Source of the DNA: Bacteroidales bacterium
Lineage (GTDB): Bacteria; Bacteroidota; Bacteroidia; Bacteroidales; UBA932
NCBI GenBank assembly: GCA_017400135.1
Contig: JAFPVJ010000017.1
Coordinates: 1 to 64,000 of the forward strand
Reading direction: 5' to 3'
DNA: 64,000 nucleotides
Position 1 is the first letter of the stretch, and each line of letters begins with the position of its first letter. The notes beneath the pieces were generated by a model. It had not been told where the DNA came from and made no database searches. It saw only the letters and a list, made by a program, of their open reading frames with translations. A program made the position numbers and the translations under genes. Of the stretch, positions 9,290 to 63,323 are shown one piece after another.

Positions 9290-9493
9290 ATGACAACAAA
9301 AAGAGATTATGAAAACATCCTCTACACGGCGGAACTCCGTGGCGAAAAGAGAGGCCGTGAAGAAGGTATGGATAAAACAAAGATGGTCATTTTGAAAAAG
9401 ATGACGGACGAGAACGCTGATCCTTCATTGATCAAAATGGTCTCCGAGTTATCTCGAGATGAGATTCTGGAAACAAAACAGGAGGCCAACTGA
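9290..9493 (+). pseudogene. C-terminal relic of an Rpn-type (PD-(D/E)XK) nuclease gene
   Basis: 67 aa. The segment ELRGEKRGREEGMDKTK and the following helix ending in a LSRDEIL-like motif resemble the charged tail of the recombination-promoting nuclease/putative transposase family. The N-terminal catalytic PD-(D/E)XK domain (about 200 aa) is absent, so the product cannot be a nuclease. Full-length relatives are near 300 aa. It keeps an intact leader hairpin, a start and a stop, so it may still be made as a short protein. Its last codons overlap the terminator of the minus-strand RNA copy 2. Confidence 0.5.
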
Positions 9494-9609
9494 CCTCCTG
9501 TAGGGTTTGCCCCAAGACTACGTGACGGAATTACTTCTAGAGCGAGGGCCTCGCGGGCGGGGACTTTTGCGCGAAACGATTACCCATCCGGGACACGGTT
9601 TTATTGTCT
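9471..9609 (-). ncRNA. structured RNA family, copy 2
   Basis: Homologue of the RNA at 8523-8655, on the other strand and of nearly equal length. It shares GCAAAAGTCCCCGCC, CGGATGGGTAA, AATAAAACCG and the final GTCTTGGGGCAA. The terminator is a perfect 8-base stem (9478-9485 with 9494-9501) followed on the minus strand by TTTTGTTT. Its terminator sequence is unrelated to that of copy 1, while the core is conserved, which argues that the core RNA is what selection keeps. Confidence 0.65.
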
Positions 9610-9614
9610 CGGTG

Positions 9615-9644
9615 CAAATGTACTGATTATTATTGATAATACAA
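9615..9644 (-). promoter_or_regulatory. consensus promoter of structured RNA copy 2
   Basis: On the minus strand TTG (9642-9644), exactly 19 bases, TACATTTG (9615-9622). The -33 element touches the position just before the start codon of the short frame at 9646. Confidence 0.7.
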
Positions 9645-9645
9645 T

Positions 9646-9759
9646 ATGACGGCGGAAGAAAGACAACGGATTGCATCAGAACTTTTGAGCTTTGGAGTCT
9701 CAGAGCAGATTATTTGGCAGTTGACAAAGATGCCGCCGGAGGAGGATCAGGTGCGATGA
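9646..9759 (+). CDS. 37-codon frame, possible Rpn tail relic
   Basis: ATG at 9646 to TGA at 9757-9759. It reads as a helix-rich peptide (MTAEERQRIASELLSFG then a second helix) like the extreme C-terminus of Rpn-family proteins. The stop lies inside the first arm of the doublet hairpin repeat. Too short to be sure it is expressed. Confidence 0.3.
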   Translation: MTAEERQRIASELLSFGVSEQIIWQLTKMPPEEDQVR

Positions 9760-9866
9760 AAGGAATGTGAGGGGCTGTTTATCCCTTTCGTCGCAGGGAA
9801 ATGGCTGTTTTCCCAGGAAATGGTGCGACGAGAGGAAAGGGGACTGCTTTCCGTTCCTTTCGTGGA
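9752..9866. repeat. doublet hairpin repeat (REP-like), site 1
   Basis: Two imperfect hairpins, 9752-9795 and 9824-9866. The arms are variants of TGCGACGAAAGGAA and its complement; starts are 72 bases apart. The 28-base spacer has its own palindrome (GGGAAA with TTTCCC). It matches the doublets at 53.8, 55.1 and 63.2 kb. The second hairpin ends 14 bases before the TATCTTTG box (9881-9888) of the next gene. Confidence 0.75.
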
Positions 9867-9910
9867 AGGAAAGAAAATGTTATCTTTGGGTCGAAAGATT
9901 GAACAAAGAT

Positions 9911-10510: not shown

Positions 10511-10545
10511 GCAAAAAGGCCGGTGCGTCAGCATCGGCCTTTTTG
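10511..10545. terminator. bidirectional intrinsic terminator after tRNA-Ser
   Basis: AAAAAGGCCG and CGGCCTTTTT pair around a 12-base loop, giving a stem with an A-run on one side and a T-run on the other, so it works in both directions. It directly follows the minus-strand tRNA. Confidence 0.75.
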
Positions 10546-10633
10546 CGGAGAGAAGGAGATTCGAACTCCTGATACCCTTTTGGGGTACACACGCTTTCCA
10601 GGCGTGCCTCTTCAGCCACTCGAGCATCTCTCC
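10546..10633 (-). tRNA. tRNA-Ser(GGA)
   Basis: 88 bases on the minus strand. The acceptor stem is GGAGAGA with TCTCTCC, the anticodon loop reads CTGGAAA (anticodon GGA), there is a long variable arm as in tRNA-Ser, and the T loop is GTTCGAATC. The discriminator is G and a full CCA is not encoded. It is transcribed divergently from holA and ends at the terminator at 10511-10545. Confidence 0.95.
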
Positions 10634-24969: not shown

Positions 24970-27218
24970 AGAAGTTGTTGATCGCCCTCCTGTTGAGCGG
25001 GATTTGCGTCCTGGCTCCGGCGCAGGCTTTCCGTCGCACGCCGACGGCGTGGAAGTGGGTTTCCGATACGGTGGCGGTGTTCAGTTATGACGGTACGTTT
25101 GACGACGCCGACGCGTTCGGCGTCGATGCGCGGACCCTGCACGTCCAGCCGGGCGTCAAGGCGCCCGAGCGTTTCGCGGATTTTCCGTACAAGCCGGAGG
25201 ATGCGGTCAACCTGACCTGGTCGCCGGATTCTTCGATGATCGCATTTACCCGGTCGAACGATCTGTATGTCTATGACCTGGCGGCGGGCAAGGAGAAGCG
25301 CCTGACCTTCGACGGGTCGGACGTGATCCTGAATGGATATGCCTCCTGGGTGTATTACGAGGAGATTTTCGGGCGCCCGTCGCGCTACCGGGCGTTCTGG
25401 TGGTCGCCGGATTCGCGCCGGATCGGCTTCTACCGTTTCGACAATTCCGAGGTGCCGATGTTCCCCATTTATTCGCCTTTCGGGCAGGACGGATCGCTGA
25501 ACCGCACGCGCTATCCCAAGGCGGGGGAGAAGAACCCGGAGGTGCGCATCGGCATGATCGACGTACGCTCCTTGCCGTTCGGGGCTTCCGAACGGAAGGT
25601 GGCGCGCAAGACGGTGTGGGCCGATTTCGACTCGTCGGAGGACCAGTATTTCGGCACGCCGTTCTGGGGACCGGACGGCGCTTCGTTCTATGTTTCGCGG
25701 GAGCCGCGCATCCAGAATACGCTGGACCTGTACCGGGTGAGTGCGCTGGACGGCTCGAAGGAACTGATTTACCACGAGACGTACAAGACCTGGCTGGAAT
25801 GGATTGAAAACGTGCTCTTTACGGACAAGGGCCTGTATATGGCGCGGGCTTTCGAGACCGGCTGGGAGCAGATCTATTTCCTTTCCTACGACGGGAAGGA
25901 ATTCCGCCGGCTGACGGAAGGGCCGAACTGGCGGATTTCGCTGCTGCGGGTCGACGAGGCTTCGGGTTCCGTTTTCTTTACGGCCAACCGCGACGCTACG
26001 ATGCGGCCCACGCTGTACCGGGTGGACGCCGGTGGACAGGTGACGGCGCTGACGGATCCGCGGCTGGCGGTGTCCGGCGTGCGTTTCAGCCCGGACGGGC
26101 AGCATTTCGTGGCTTCCCTGTCCAATTATACGACCCCCACGCAGGTCTGGCTGTATGAGACGCGGCGGGCTCCGATGGCGTGGAAGAACCGGCGCCTGTT
26201 GGAAGGGACGCCGAAGGGCATGCACGTGGACGACCGGGCGGCACGCAGCTGTCTGAAGGTGGCCGATGCCGCGGGTCCCGACTTCGATGCGTCGGCGTAT
26301 GCCTTGCCGCAGATCGTCACGATCCCGGCGGAGGACGGGCTGATGATGCCGGCGGCGGTGACCTATCCGGTCGGCTTCGATCCTTCTGCCAAGTATCCGG
26401 TACATTTCGAGATCTACGGCGGGCCGAATACGGCGTATGTCCGGGATTCCTGGCGCCGTCCCGCTCCGCTGAACCAGTGGTGGAGCGAGCAGGGGATCAT
26501 CCACGTCGTGGTGGACTGCCGGGCCTCGGGCCACAACGGCCGGGCGGGGACGGATCTGGTCTACCGCAATCTGACGGACGTGCCGGTGCGGGATTTTCTG
26601 ACCTGGGCGGAGTATTTCAAGTCGCTGCCTTACGTGGACGGGGATCGTCTTGGCGTTGAAGGTTTTTCTTTCGGGGGAACGATGACGGCGATGCTGCTCC
26701 TGCGGCATTCAGACGTGTTCCGCTGCGGGATCGCAGGGGGCGGCGTGTATGACTGGTCTCTGTATGACAGTCACTATACGGAGCGTTTCATGGAGACGCC
26801 GCAGACCAATCCGGAAGGGTACGATGCGTCCTGCGTGTTGAAGTACGCCGGAGAGTATCCGGTGAAGATCGGGGCGATCTCTGCGGCGGTGGCTTCTTCC
26901 GCTTCGGCTGGGACTTCCGGTTCTTCCAAGGTGGGAGCTGGATCTTCCAAGGTGGGTGGTTCGGCTGCCGGTTCCGGCTCCGAGGTCGCTCCTGATCCGG
27001 ACCCGGCCGCCGGGGTGATGCTGAAACTGACGCACGGCACCGGCGACGACAACGTCCATTTCCAGAATACATTACAACTGGTGGATGCCCTGCAGAAAGC
27101 CGGTAAGGACTTCCAACTGATGATCTACCCCGACGGCATGCACGGCTACCGCGGCGCCCAGGCCATCCATTCCTGGGGCACCGACCACGACTTCTGGCTC
27201 AAATACCTGAAGCAGTAG
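24966..27218 (+). CDS. S9B dipeptidyl peptidase IV-like protein
   Basis: 750 aa from the ATG at 24966 that overlaps the helicase stop and opens on a signal peptide (KKLLIALLLSGICVLAPAQA). The N-terminal beta-propeller is followed by an alpha/beta hydrolase with Ser568 in GFSFGG, Asp694/695 in HGTGDDNVHF and His726 in DGMHGY. It should release dipeptides from peptide N-termini in the periplasm. Odd: residues about 635-683 form a Ser/Gly/Ala-rich insert with a repeated SSKVG unit, just before the strand that leads to the catalytic Asp. Confidence 0.92.
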   Translation: MKKLLIALLLSGICVLAPAQAFRRTPTAWKWVSDTVAVFSYDGTFDDADAFGVDARTLHVQPGVKAPERFADFPYKPEDAVNLTWSPDSSMIAFTRSNDLYVYDLAAGKEKRLTFDGSDVILNGYASWVYYEEIFGRPSRYRAFWWSPDSRRIGFYRFDNSEVPMFPIYSPFGQDGSLNRTRYPKAGEKNPEVRIGMIDVRSLPFGASERKVARKTVWADFDSSEDQYFGTPFWGPDGASFYVSREPRIQNTLDLYRVSALDGSKELIYHETYKTWLEWIENVLFTDKGLYMARAFETGWEQIYFLSYDGKEFRRLTEGPNWRISLLRVDEASGSVFFTANRDATMRPTLYRVDAGGQVTALTDPRLAVSGVRFSPDGQHFVASLSNYTTPTQVWLYETRRAPMAWKNRRLLEGTPKGMHVDDRAARSCLKVADAAGPDFDASAYALPQIVTIPAEDGLMMPAAVTYPVGFDPSAKYPVHFEIYGGPNTAYVRDSWRRPAPLNQWWSEQGIIHVVVDCRASGHNGRAGTDLVYRNLTDVPVRDFLTWAEYFKSLPYVDGDRLGVEGFSFGGTMTAMLLLRHSDVFRCGIAGGGVYDWSLYDSHYTERFMETPQTNPEGYDASCVLKYAGEYPVKIGAISAAVASSASAGTSGSSKVGAGSSKVGGSAAGSGSEVAPDPDPAAGVMLKLTHGTGDDNVHFQNTLQLVDALQKAGKDFQLMIYPDGMHGYRGAQAIHSWGTDHDFWLKYLKQ

Positions 27219-53835: not shown

Positions 53836-53951
53836 TGCGACGAAAGGAAAGACAAGGCTATTCCGTTCCTTTTGTGGAAGGGTTTTCCAGGTTTGGGGCT
53901 GTTTTGGTGCGACGAGAGGAAGGGACGGGGGCACTCTTTCCTTTCGTCGCA
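53836..53951. repeat. doublet hairpin repeat (REP-like), site 2, downstream of RAYT
   Basis: Hairpins at 53836-53878 and 53908-53951, starts 72 bases apart. Arms are TGCGACGAAAGGAA and TGCGACGAGAGGAA with complements; the outermost arm of the second is nearly perfect. The array ends 34 bases from the stop of the transposase gene. Confidence 0.8.
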
Positions 53952-53985
53952 GATGATGTGCAGAGGAAACTTGGGGACAGGCAGG

Positions 53986-54960
53986 TCAGATACAGAGACA
54001 CCTTCGGAGTTGGGCTTCGGTCACGTTTTTTCCCGCAAGTAAACCGCGCGGGGTTCTGCCGAACCTTGACTGAAGACATTCTTGCCAAAGGTTGTTGCAA
54101 ATGGTTGCGCGTTTGGATTCGGATAGTCGGTAGATGGAAGCTGGCTCACTTCCCTTGAGGTATCTGGGGACAATTTGCCCGTCGACGACGGCGCACAATT
54201 CCAGATCCGTCATTCTTTTCCGGTCGACCTTTCCTTGCTCGAAGATCTTTGCCGTTTTGGAGTTGAAATCAGGGACCCCGGATTCAATGAGGTCCACTGT
54301 TATCGGCGGAGCATCGTTCTCCTTGCGTTGTTCGTCCAAGTCCCTTTCATTTGACACTTTGTTCATTTGGAACAGGTAGTTCCGGGGTGAGATGTAGATT
54401 TCTTCCACGTATGCCGTATCGATTATATCCTCTCGGAGAAGAAGCCCGTTTGCTGACATCCGGTAACGGTCTGCGGGAAGACTTTTGTTTCTCGGGAGAT
54501 ACAGATATCGGTTTGAGTCACGTAACAGTTGCTTTTCTTCGCGCCGGCCCAGTTCATTCCGGAAGAATGCGTTTGCCGAACAATGCGGATATTCGAAGGG
54601 CGTTGAGGTCAGGCCATGATGGAGTCCCTGCCGGATCACATAATTGAGGGCTGCCGTCGTATGGAAAAGGCCTTCTACTTCCAGGGAGAAATAATTCCTT
54701 TCTCCAAGTTGTCCGTTTCGGGAGTATTTTGCGTTAAAGTACCGGGCGTAGGCATACCGGCTGCGGTACATGAGTTCCTTGTAATGGTCTGTTTGTACGA
54801 GATTGTGATGGTGAGTCGTCATGAATCCTTCCGCCAACAGCCGGGATTCCGTTTCCAAAACGGCCAGGGCCAGACAGTTGAACCCCATAATGAGGTCCGC
54901 TTCGCTTCGGTACATGACTTCGTCGTGGGACGAAAGACACAGATGGACAGTCTTTCTCAT
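53986..54960 (-). CDS. REP-associated (RAYT-like) HUH/Y1 transposase
   Basis: 324 aa. The N-terminal 130 residues follow the TnpA-REP pattern: VHLCLSSHDEV, then the HUH-like THHHNLV at 49-55, then the tyrosine-rich helix RYAYARYFNAKYSRNGQL (68-85), GERNYFSLEVEG, and a NYVIRQGLHHG segment in place of the usual YIELNPVRAG. The remaining 190 residues are an extra C-terminal region not found in typical RAYTs (about 150-220 aa), with unknown role. It is flanked by doublet hairpins on both sides. A TATCTTCG box on the minus strand lies at 55046-55053. Composition is less GC-rich than the neighbours. Confidence 0.72.
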   Translation of the reverse strand: MRKTVHLCLSSHDEVMYRSEADLIMGFNCLALAVLETESRLLAEGFMTTHHHNLVQTDHYKELMYRSRYAYARYFNAKYSRNGQLGERNYFSLEVEGLFHTTAALNYVIRQGLHHGLTSTPFEYPHCSANAFFRNELGRREEKQLLRDSNRYLYLPRNKSLPADRYRMSANGLLLREDIIDTAYVEEIYISPRNYLFQMNKVSNERDLDEQRKENDAPPITVDLIESGVPDFNSKTAKIFEQGKVDRKRMTDLELCAVVDGQIVPRYLKGSEPASIYRLSESKRATICNNLWQECLQSRFGRTPRGLLAGKNVTEAQLRRCLCI

Positions 54961-55081
54961 AGCATTCCTTATTCAACAACTCATCTCCAGCTCCAGTCCT
55001 GATACGCGAATCGCCCGCCTCTCAAGAAACGCTGTATGTCAAAAACGAAGATAGCACTTTTTCCTCGCATTCTGTAGTATT

Positions 55082-55196
55082 TGCGACGAAAAGAAAGATT
55101 CCGTGGTTTCTTTCCTTTCGTTGCAAGAAATAGGGCGATTATCGCTGAAATGATGCGACGAAAGGAAAAGGGGGAAAGCTATATGCCTTTCGCGGA
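55082..55196. repeat. doublet hairpin repeat (REP-like), site 3, upstream of RAYT
   Basis: Hairpins at 55082-55125 and 55154-55196, starts 72 bases apart. The spacer carries a palindrome GCGAT-T-ATCGC. The second hairpin ends 8 bases before a TATATTTG box (55205-55212), so the repeat occupies the -33 region of the next gene. Confidence 0.8.
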
Positions 55197-55234
55197 TTTG
55201 TCGTTATATTTGTTTGCGTGAAACAGTTGAAGAG

Positions 55235-63160: not shown

Positions 63161-63275
63161 TGCTACGAAAGGATACAATGCTGTGTTTCATTCCTTTCGT
63201 GGTAGCGAAACAACTATTTCTTGTGAAACTGTAGCGACGAAAGGAAGATACAAATGTGATTTTTCCTTTCGTCAT
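63161..63275. repeat. doublet hairpin repeat (REP-like), site 4
   Basis: Hairpins at 63161-63206 and 63232-63275, starts 71 bases apart. The first has a variant foot (TGCTACGAAAGGA with TCCTTTCGTGGTAGC), where both arms of the foot changed together. It lies just after the putative anti-sigma gene and before the lipoprotein gene. Confidence 0.72.
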
Positions 63276-63323
63276 AAAAAAGAAACTTGCAAGGGAAAAA
63301 TAGTTGGTGTAGGAATTAATTGT

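Follow-up and report, generated by a model that had tools for sequence, protein, structure and literature searches.

The question raised by this locus is whether a gene for a 324-aa protein and the paired hairpins around it belong to one system, and of what kind. The window, i.e. the whole stretch of DNA analyzed, comprises nucleotides 1 to 64,000 of contig JAFPVJ010000017.1 of a Bacteroidales bacterium (assembly GCA_017400135.1). It contains four doublets of imperfect hairpins, two of which bracket the gene (Table 1). A sequence-only reading had proposed a REP/RAYT-like organization. This was supported by a genome search, by the alignment of the HUH and Tyr motifs, and by the covariation of gene and repeat, and it was right in kind: the gene with its doublets is best regarded as a variant of the REPtron. 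We consider it about 75% probable that the locus is a REPtron-like system, in which an HUH/Y1 transposase is located between copies of its own cognate two-hairpin repeat and this repeat is spread in trans.

Table 1. Features of the window; positions are counted from its first nucleotide.
Feature	Position	Strand	Details
Putative RAYT-like HUH/Y1 transposase gene (P0001)	53986..54960	-	324 aa; core of ~residues 1-130 and ~190-residue C-terminal extension
HUH motif H50-x-H52 (THHH)	54805..54813	-	H50 in 95/95 and H52 in 94/95 family members
Catalytic-type tyrosine Y107	54640..54642	-	95/95; followed by N/Q at 111 (71 N, 24 Q) and H114-H115 (95/95)
C-terminal R-C-L motif, residues 320-322	53995..54003	-	95, 94 and 90 of 95
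Doublet A, dispersed	9752..9867	+	Hairpins 9752-9795 and 9824-9867
Doublet B, downstream of gene	53836..53951	+	Hairpins 53836-53879 and 53908-53951; spacer 53880-53907
Doublet C, upstream of gene	55082..55197	+	Hairpins 55082-55125 and 55154-55197; spacer 55126-55153
Doublet D, dispersed	63161..63276	+	Hairpins 63161-63204 and 63233-63276; site also occupied in genome G180

All four doublets were found where they had been placed before, and their arms are variants of TGCGACGAAAGGAA. With up to two mismatches allowed, this arm has 14 matches in the window, all of them inside the doublets; the mean expected number was 0.72, and none of 100 shuffles reached 14. The ungapped layout is arm, loop, arm, spacer, arm, loop and arm of 14, 16, 14, 28, 14, 16 and 14 nt, which gives two 44-nt hairpins and a 28-nt spacer. 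Some arms of the outer hairpins are imperfect in part (e.g., in 55154-55197). The start-to-start distance, previously given as 71 or 72 nt, is exactly 72 nt at each site. In the window's genome, loop and spacer have constant lengths but an almost unconstrained sequence: identity is 0.28-0.41, compared with 0.71-0.89 in the arms. The spacer had also been described as palindromic. Its self-complementarity turned out to be no higher than in spacers recombined between related loci: the mean mini-stem was 2.37 vs 2.41 for the recombined spacers in the 72-nt class (n=43) and 2.67 vs 2.70 in the 83-nt class (n=30). A spacer hairpin as a third element was ruled out by this lack of excess pairing. The Rfam scan at the gathering threshold gave no match in the window. 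Many genomes of the genus contain copies, often 83-91% identical, of a segment of ~150-180 bp that lies upstream of doublet A (9471-9650); it too has no Rfam match and is possibly another dispersed element. At 10545-10633, on the minus strand, ARAGORN calls a tRNA-Ser (GGA), and the Rfam gathering-threshold scan lists nothing there.

The gene was confirmed at its proposed position on the minus strand, and the protein, as had been noted, continues for ~190 residues beyond its core. Conservation was determined in an alignment of 95 proteins, which included P0001 and some near-identical rows; three short proteins were excluded. The HUH-like motif and the Tyr of the earlier reading are conserved throughout this family, apart from H52 in one member. 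In an hhalign comparison of the P0001 family with ten Y1_Tnp proteins of the order, 114 columns were aligned (probability 75, P 2.5e-5), with HUH on HUH and Tyr on Tyr; the catalytic-type His and Tyr thus coincide with those of Y1_Tnp proteins. Pfam Y1_Tnp matched 11 of 35 diverse family members at E<=1 (best 2.7e-5), and REP_Tyr_transpos (NF047646) matched 21 of the 35 at the same threshold (best 1.8e-10). P0001 itself scored 15.3 bits against the latter (E=0.014), which is below the curated cut-off of 80 bits, and alone against Pfam it gave nothing above the cut-off and one chance-level hit, Y1_Tnp being unmatched. No match was found in the PDB by sequence or profile, among the defence systems of PADLOC, or by tblastn in plasmid and phage collections. 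The family has the combination that defines TnpA-Y1, an HUH motif and one Tyr in a core of ~110-170 aa. Together, the conservation of these residues and the Y1_Tnp and REP_Tyr_transpos matches point to an HUH/Y1 protein. From these weak but consistent family matches, P0001 is predicted to be a divergent HUH/Y1 transposase of the REP-associated type, and, judged by the two library scores, its family appears closer to the REP-associated enzymes.

Copies of the repeat were searched for with a covariance model of the single hairpin; its training set was the 14 hairpins from seven doublets. The hits in the window's own genome (2.31 Mb, 28 contigs, 88.6% complete) make up nine doublets, each with a 72-nt distance. 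Four of the 18 hairpins lay outside the training set; they form the doublets at C9:176986/177058 and C7:24785/24857, where the distance is 72 nt as well. Of 812 first-look candidates, 150 were scored, and at E<0.05 these included no solo hairpin. The doublet is thus the only form found in this genome, in agreement with the fixed two-hairpin unit proposed earlier. The expectation of many copies in the same phase was borne out as to phase; in number, nine doublets are few by REP standards, where the copy number is high and often over 100.

With stricter filters, the same model was run on 200 genomes of the genus, and six, including the window's own, had matches at E<=0.001. G180 carries five doublets, all at 72 nt, and G171 carries one of the window's arm family. 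The places found in G171, C37 near 26455-26570 and C21:137-181, appear to be a single site divided between two contig ends. In G002, G043 and G211, the matches were weaker and other arms occur in the same layout. Doublets in related genomes without the gene had been named beforehand as evidence against a REP/RAYT-like unit. Such doublets, of the window's arm family and with no listed gene at E<=1e-30, do occur in G171 (95% complete) and G180 (55% complete), the doublet and gene searches presumably having drawn on the same 200 genomes; REP relics or incomplete assemblies would, however, give the same picture.

Amplification specific to a genome was examined for one arm, GCCACGAAATCCAT, in eight genomes. 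With up to one mismatch, 29 matches were found in its own genome, G175, many of them 72 nt apart, against 2 for the reversed-pattern control. The other seven genomes had 0-4 matches, and in five of them other arms adjoin the gene; an exact match in G200 adjoins the gene's close relative in that genome. Longer hairpin arrays were observed at several loci, each at the step of its own lineage: 72 nt at L041, 83 nt at L145, 82 nt at L158 and 83-84 nt at L166. The L041 gene has 8 hairpins before it and 7 after it, and two spacer types alternate, as if doublets had been duplicated. At L121, the flanks consist of 48-bp units in tandem that contain the hairpin arm CCGTGACG; this array resembles a minisatellite that has developed from the repeat. 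At L055, near-identical doublets flank a shortened transposase gene (261 aa), in which the stretch from just after the HUH motif through the Tyr is absent; it is likely a decayed copy.

A search with P0001 in 41 genomes (the window's own, 24 relatives in the genus and 16 from other parts of the order) gave matches in 22 at E<=0.001, all within the genus except a weak match in G033. At E<=1e-30, relatives were present in 63 of 200 genus genomes and in 20 of 80 good ones. The genes occur in one to few copies per genome and differ in sequence. Named relatives are Bacteroidales assemblies, several of them from the ruminant forestomach. For the analysis of flanks, 98 loci were collected: 89 of the 92 listed matches (two at contig ends and one with an internal stop were left out) and nine from another search. 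In 193 flanks of up to 700 nt each, we looked for pairs of hairpins that have similar arms and lie 46-124 nt apart. Doublets passed the threshold in 107 flanks, representing 79 of the 98 loci (76 of 93 after removal of near-identical proteins), and in none of 579 shuffled flanks or 83 window segments. The remaining 19 of the 98 relatives had no doublet above the threshold. At L023, a doublet at 82 nt seen in a separate scan was missed because it overlaps the gene end. In the P0001 family, the upstream doublets lie at a median of 247 nt before the gene, and the downstream ones begin at a median of 28 nt after the stop codon.

There is also a more distant subfamily, with 20-29% identity to P0001 in the members that were found first. 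At E<=1e-15 it was detected in 86 of 101 genus genomes, and the window's own genome has it as well. Its scan left out L229 (the same as L033), L038 (weak, from another family) and most of the listed matches. Doublets were found at 35 of 49 loci (30 of 43 distinct ones), with no above-threshold doublet at the other 14; the distance was 51-53 nt in 48 of 49 passing flanks, and none of 392 shuffles passed. In three members of the 52-nt subfamily (L027, L242 and L243), the hairpin call is doubtful, as the sequence resembles tandem repeats of 52 nt. The subfamily gene of the window's genome (L059, G000:C3:25255-26133) has a doublet of its own, at 51 nt and with TGCGCCCAATGGC arms.

Arm sequences vary by lineage (e.g., ACACCTTGGACG, GCCACGAAATCC, TGTCTCAGAATG and GCCGCGTTTACA) and are common only to close relatives, so that each transposase has its own repeat family. 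Forty loci have doublets both before and after the gene; the pair was alike in direct orientation in 29 and in inverted orientation in 5, with more than 90% identity in 12. The two gene-side doublets of the window (identity 0.56 vs 0.53 by orientation) cannot be oriented against each other. In the REPtron manner, cognate palindromic repeats lie on both sides of the gene and recur elsewhere in the genome. Since doublets of differing arms flank related genes and arm amplification is specific to the genome, gene and repeat co-diversify, as in REP/RAYT systems.

The spacing behaves differently from the arms. In 148 of 156 pooled flanks, it fell into three classes at 51.88 (s.d. 0.59), 72.32 (0.62) and 82.88 (0.71) nt, which include two probable false positives (L040 at 53 and L053 upstream at 82). 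The remaining flanks gave 61, 63, 80, 96 (two), 104 (two) and 114 nt. At L169, whole arrays step by 114 nt. On a quick tree of 97 proteins, with labels set by hand for L113, L054 and L159 and blanked for L121, L160 and L040, the 72- and 83-nt states need four changes, and 61, 104 and 114 nt are main states on single branches. The extra length of the 83-nt clade sits in the hairpin (median 51 vs 40 nt), and that of L103 and L111 in the spacer. Six spacing states fit a step of 10.47 nt, and in the phase test p was 0.0006 within the B-DNA band and 0.005 when any period of 8-14 nt was allowed; this test excludes 63, 80 and 96 nt, which were judged spurious or truncated (L037, L169 upstream, L121/L160). 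When all nine values were used, R fell to 0.71, with p=0.0024 in the 10.2-10.7 band and 0.015 for any period of 8-14 nt. With only the three main classes, the two p values were 0.009 (B-DNA band) and 0.088 (any period of 8-14 nt). Counting whole turns through zero also gave a good fit, yet 20% of arbitrary offsets fit equally well, so only the step, not the intercept, counts as evidence.

The A/T content of the spacer peaks about every 10 nt, near -10, 0 and +9 in the 72- and 83-nt classes and near -6 and +5 in the 52-nt class. In each of the three classes, none of 1000 circular-shift permutations reached this phase. Outside the spacer, the corresponding numbers were 0/1000 for the 83-nt class, 3/1000 for the 72-nt class and 59/1000 for the 52-nt class, where the phase is not clear. 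These permutation tests ignore kinship, so the zeros overstate the strength of the result. As the spacer has no excess self-pairing, a small hairpin does not explain the A/T tracts. The helical spacing steps and the phased tracts suggest that the unit is recognized partly as a duplex.

It is a distinct possibility, though we hold it at less than even odds, that the doublets are the single-stranded REP hairpins of an ordinary REPtron, whose enzyme is a relative of TnpA-REP, with the spacing merely inherited and the 10.5-nt steps a coincidence. The REP_Tyr_transpos matches of the family agree with this. Only four 72/83 switches and three rarer states were found, which means few independent events, and the three main classes alone give the p values of 0.009 and 0.088 stated above. 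Fixed spacing between REPs is also known. REPINs were reportedly described by Bertels and Rainey in 2011. According to the parts of the P. fluorescens study considered here (PMC3116915), REPs are paired in inverted orientation (93% of 430) at a spacing of 71 bp in GI and 110 bp in GII. The doublet as a unit, its conserved spacing and the closeness of 71 to 72 are shared with the present repeats. The 110 bp of GII, in contrast, does not fit the steps in the P0001 family, and here each hairpin is near-palindromic by itself, with loops that tend to be alike in direct orientation across related loci, though not within the doublets of the window's genome. Against coincidence stand the phase of the six states and of all nine values and the A/T phasing in all three classes. 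Moreover, a scan of 56 flanks from 30 REP_Tyr_transpos loci in the order yielded 9 hits, which had no common spacing.

The same helical steps and phased tracts, together with loops of fixed length and free sequence, would suit sites at which this protein or a host protein binds duplex DNA (operators, nucleoid or gyrase sites), the enzyme being domesticated and no longer moving the doublets. Their consistent position around the gene would suit such sites as well. We regard this as unlikely: the active-site residues are strictly conserved, and amplification is indicated by the 29 arm matches in G175 and by the L041 gene with its arrays of 8 and 7 hairpins.

It is likewise improbable that the doublets are MITE-like miniature IS200/IS605 elements, in which the two hairpins would be the left and right ends of a 116-nt element. 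Each unit does have two hairpins, and the loops within a doublet are more often alike in direct than in inverted orientation (41 vs 21 of 70 loci and 20 vs 8 of 31), as expected of ends on the same strand; in the window's genome, the two loops of one doublet gave 0.278 direct vs 0.285 inverted. The HUH/Y1 core and hairpin ends are also common to IS200/IS605 TnpA and its derived MITEs. However, the arrays of L041, L145, L158 and L166 run past two hairpins at the same step, and no conserved end or target motif is apparent by eye beside the sites. Unlike IS200/IS605, there is no IS body here, and the transposase genes are one to few per genome and differ in sequence. Transcription terminators or mRNA stabilizers that merely adjoin genes might begin 28 nt past a stop codon, but the upstream copies, the strict spacing, the turnover of arms along with the transposase and the genome-specific amplification make this explanation very improbable.

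The REPtron-like reading can be compared with the described systems. As in REPtrons of TnpA-REP (RAYT) groups 2 and 3 (Quentin 2.2 and 2.5), an HUH/Y1 gene is flanked by its own family of palindromic repeats, which differs along with the gene and has dispersed copies. Unlike in REPtrons, the doublets are few and lack the canonical GTAG foot: at the feet as placed by the scan, GT[AG]G was found in 11 of 302 5' feet and C[CT]AC in 9 of 302 3' feet, with a background of 4.6% each. The fixed spacing with turn-sized steps between lineages and the ~190-aa C-terminal extension also set the family apart. Its motifs are mostly [ST][TN]HxH and Y-x-x-R-[NQ], while the REPtron Tyr motif is given as Y-[IV]-x-x-NP (PMC6006769, in part). 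The sections of Quentin et al. (2018) considered here describe a Bacteroidetes subclass, 2.6, with a median of 179 aa, atypical hairpins without GT[AG]G and repeat copies elsewhere in the genome, and long subclasses, 2.1 and 2.3, without REPs (PMC6006769). The host, the hairpins without GT[AG]G and the dispersed copies are as in subclass 2.6, from which, by that description (179 aa, NH[LIV]H, YIH[QN]NP), the P0001 family of ~305-325 aa appears distinct. Compared with the subclasses in those sections, it joins a long protein with REP-like repeats that lack the GT[AG]G foot. Another report lists repeats of the GTAG and the CGTC type, with CGTC repeats occurring in Bacteroidetes as well (PMC3733652). 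In the titles and abstract openings of the open-access literature, we found no description of a Bacteroidales version or of helical phasing of REPs. What is new is that the doublet spacing is frozen while the arm sequence is free, with classes roughly one B-DNA turn apart.

In the REPtron-like system that we favor, the enzyme would spread the two-hairpin unit in trans to a handful of other sites, the doublet probably being the moving unit. Searches for an empty site, as evidence of movement, gave no match across a junction, either for the surroundings of doublet A in 200 genus genomes, for the joined flanks of seven own sites in G180, or for those of four G180 sites in the window's genome. Site D, in a block of 91.6% identity, is the only site common to these two genomes. 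GC skew is near zero around most doublet sites. By analogy with E. coli TnpA-REP, for which single-strand cutting and joining is reported (PMC8266576, in part), the HUH core would cut and join the hairpins as single strands. With less confidence, the unit may be bound before or besides cutting as a (bent) duplex with both palindromes on one face. We infer such binding from the helical spacing steps and phased A/T tracts, because a purely single-stranded substrate gives no obvious cause for 10.5-nt steps. The C-terminal extension possibly binds the bent duplex, which could let the gene-flanking doublets regulate the gene. As a whole, we propose only tentatively that this large family of REP-type transposases, found essentially in one Bacteroidales genus, has two-palindrome units spaced in duplex turns (~5, 6, 7, 8, 10 and 11) with phased A/T tracts, and that HUH action is preceded by a duplex-recognition step, in which the C-terminal extension would read either the bent duplex or a one-face cruciform.

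To our knowledge, the spread of REP repeats is an unsolved problem. The bench-tested REP transposases described in the available part of PMC8266576 are gamma-proteobacterial. This REPtron variant is interesting chiefly for its spacing rule. The family offers about a hundred natural pairs of transposase and repeat, in which the arms turn over and the spacing is either frozen or jumps by about one helix turn. Such pairs make it testable which residues read the repeat, whether the doublet or the hairpin is the unit, and whether it is read as a duplex. If the proposal is true, a supposedly single-strand enzyme system would have a duplex-recognition step.
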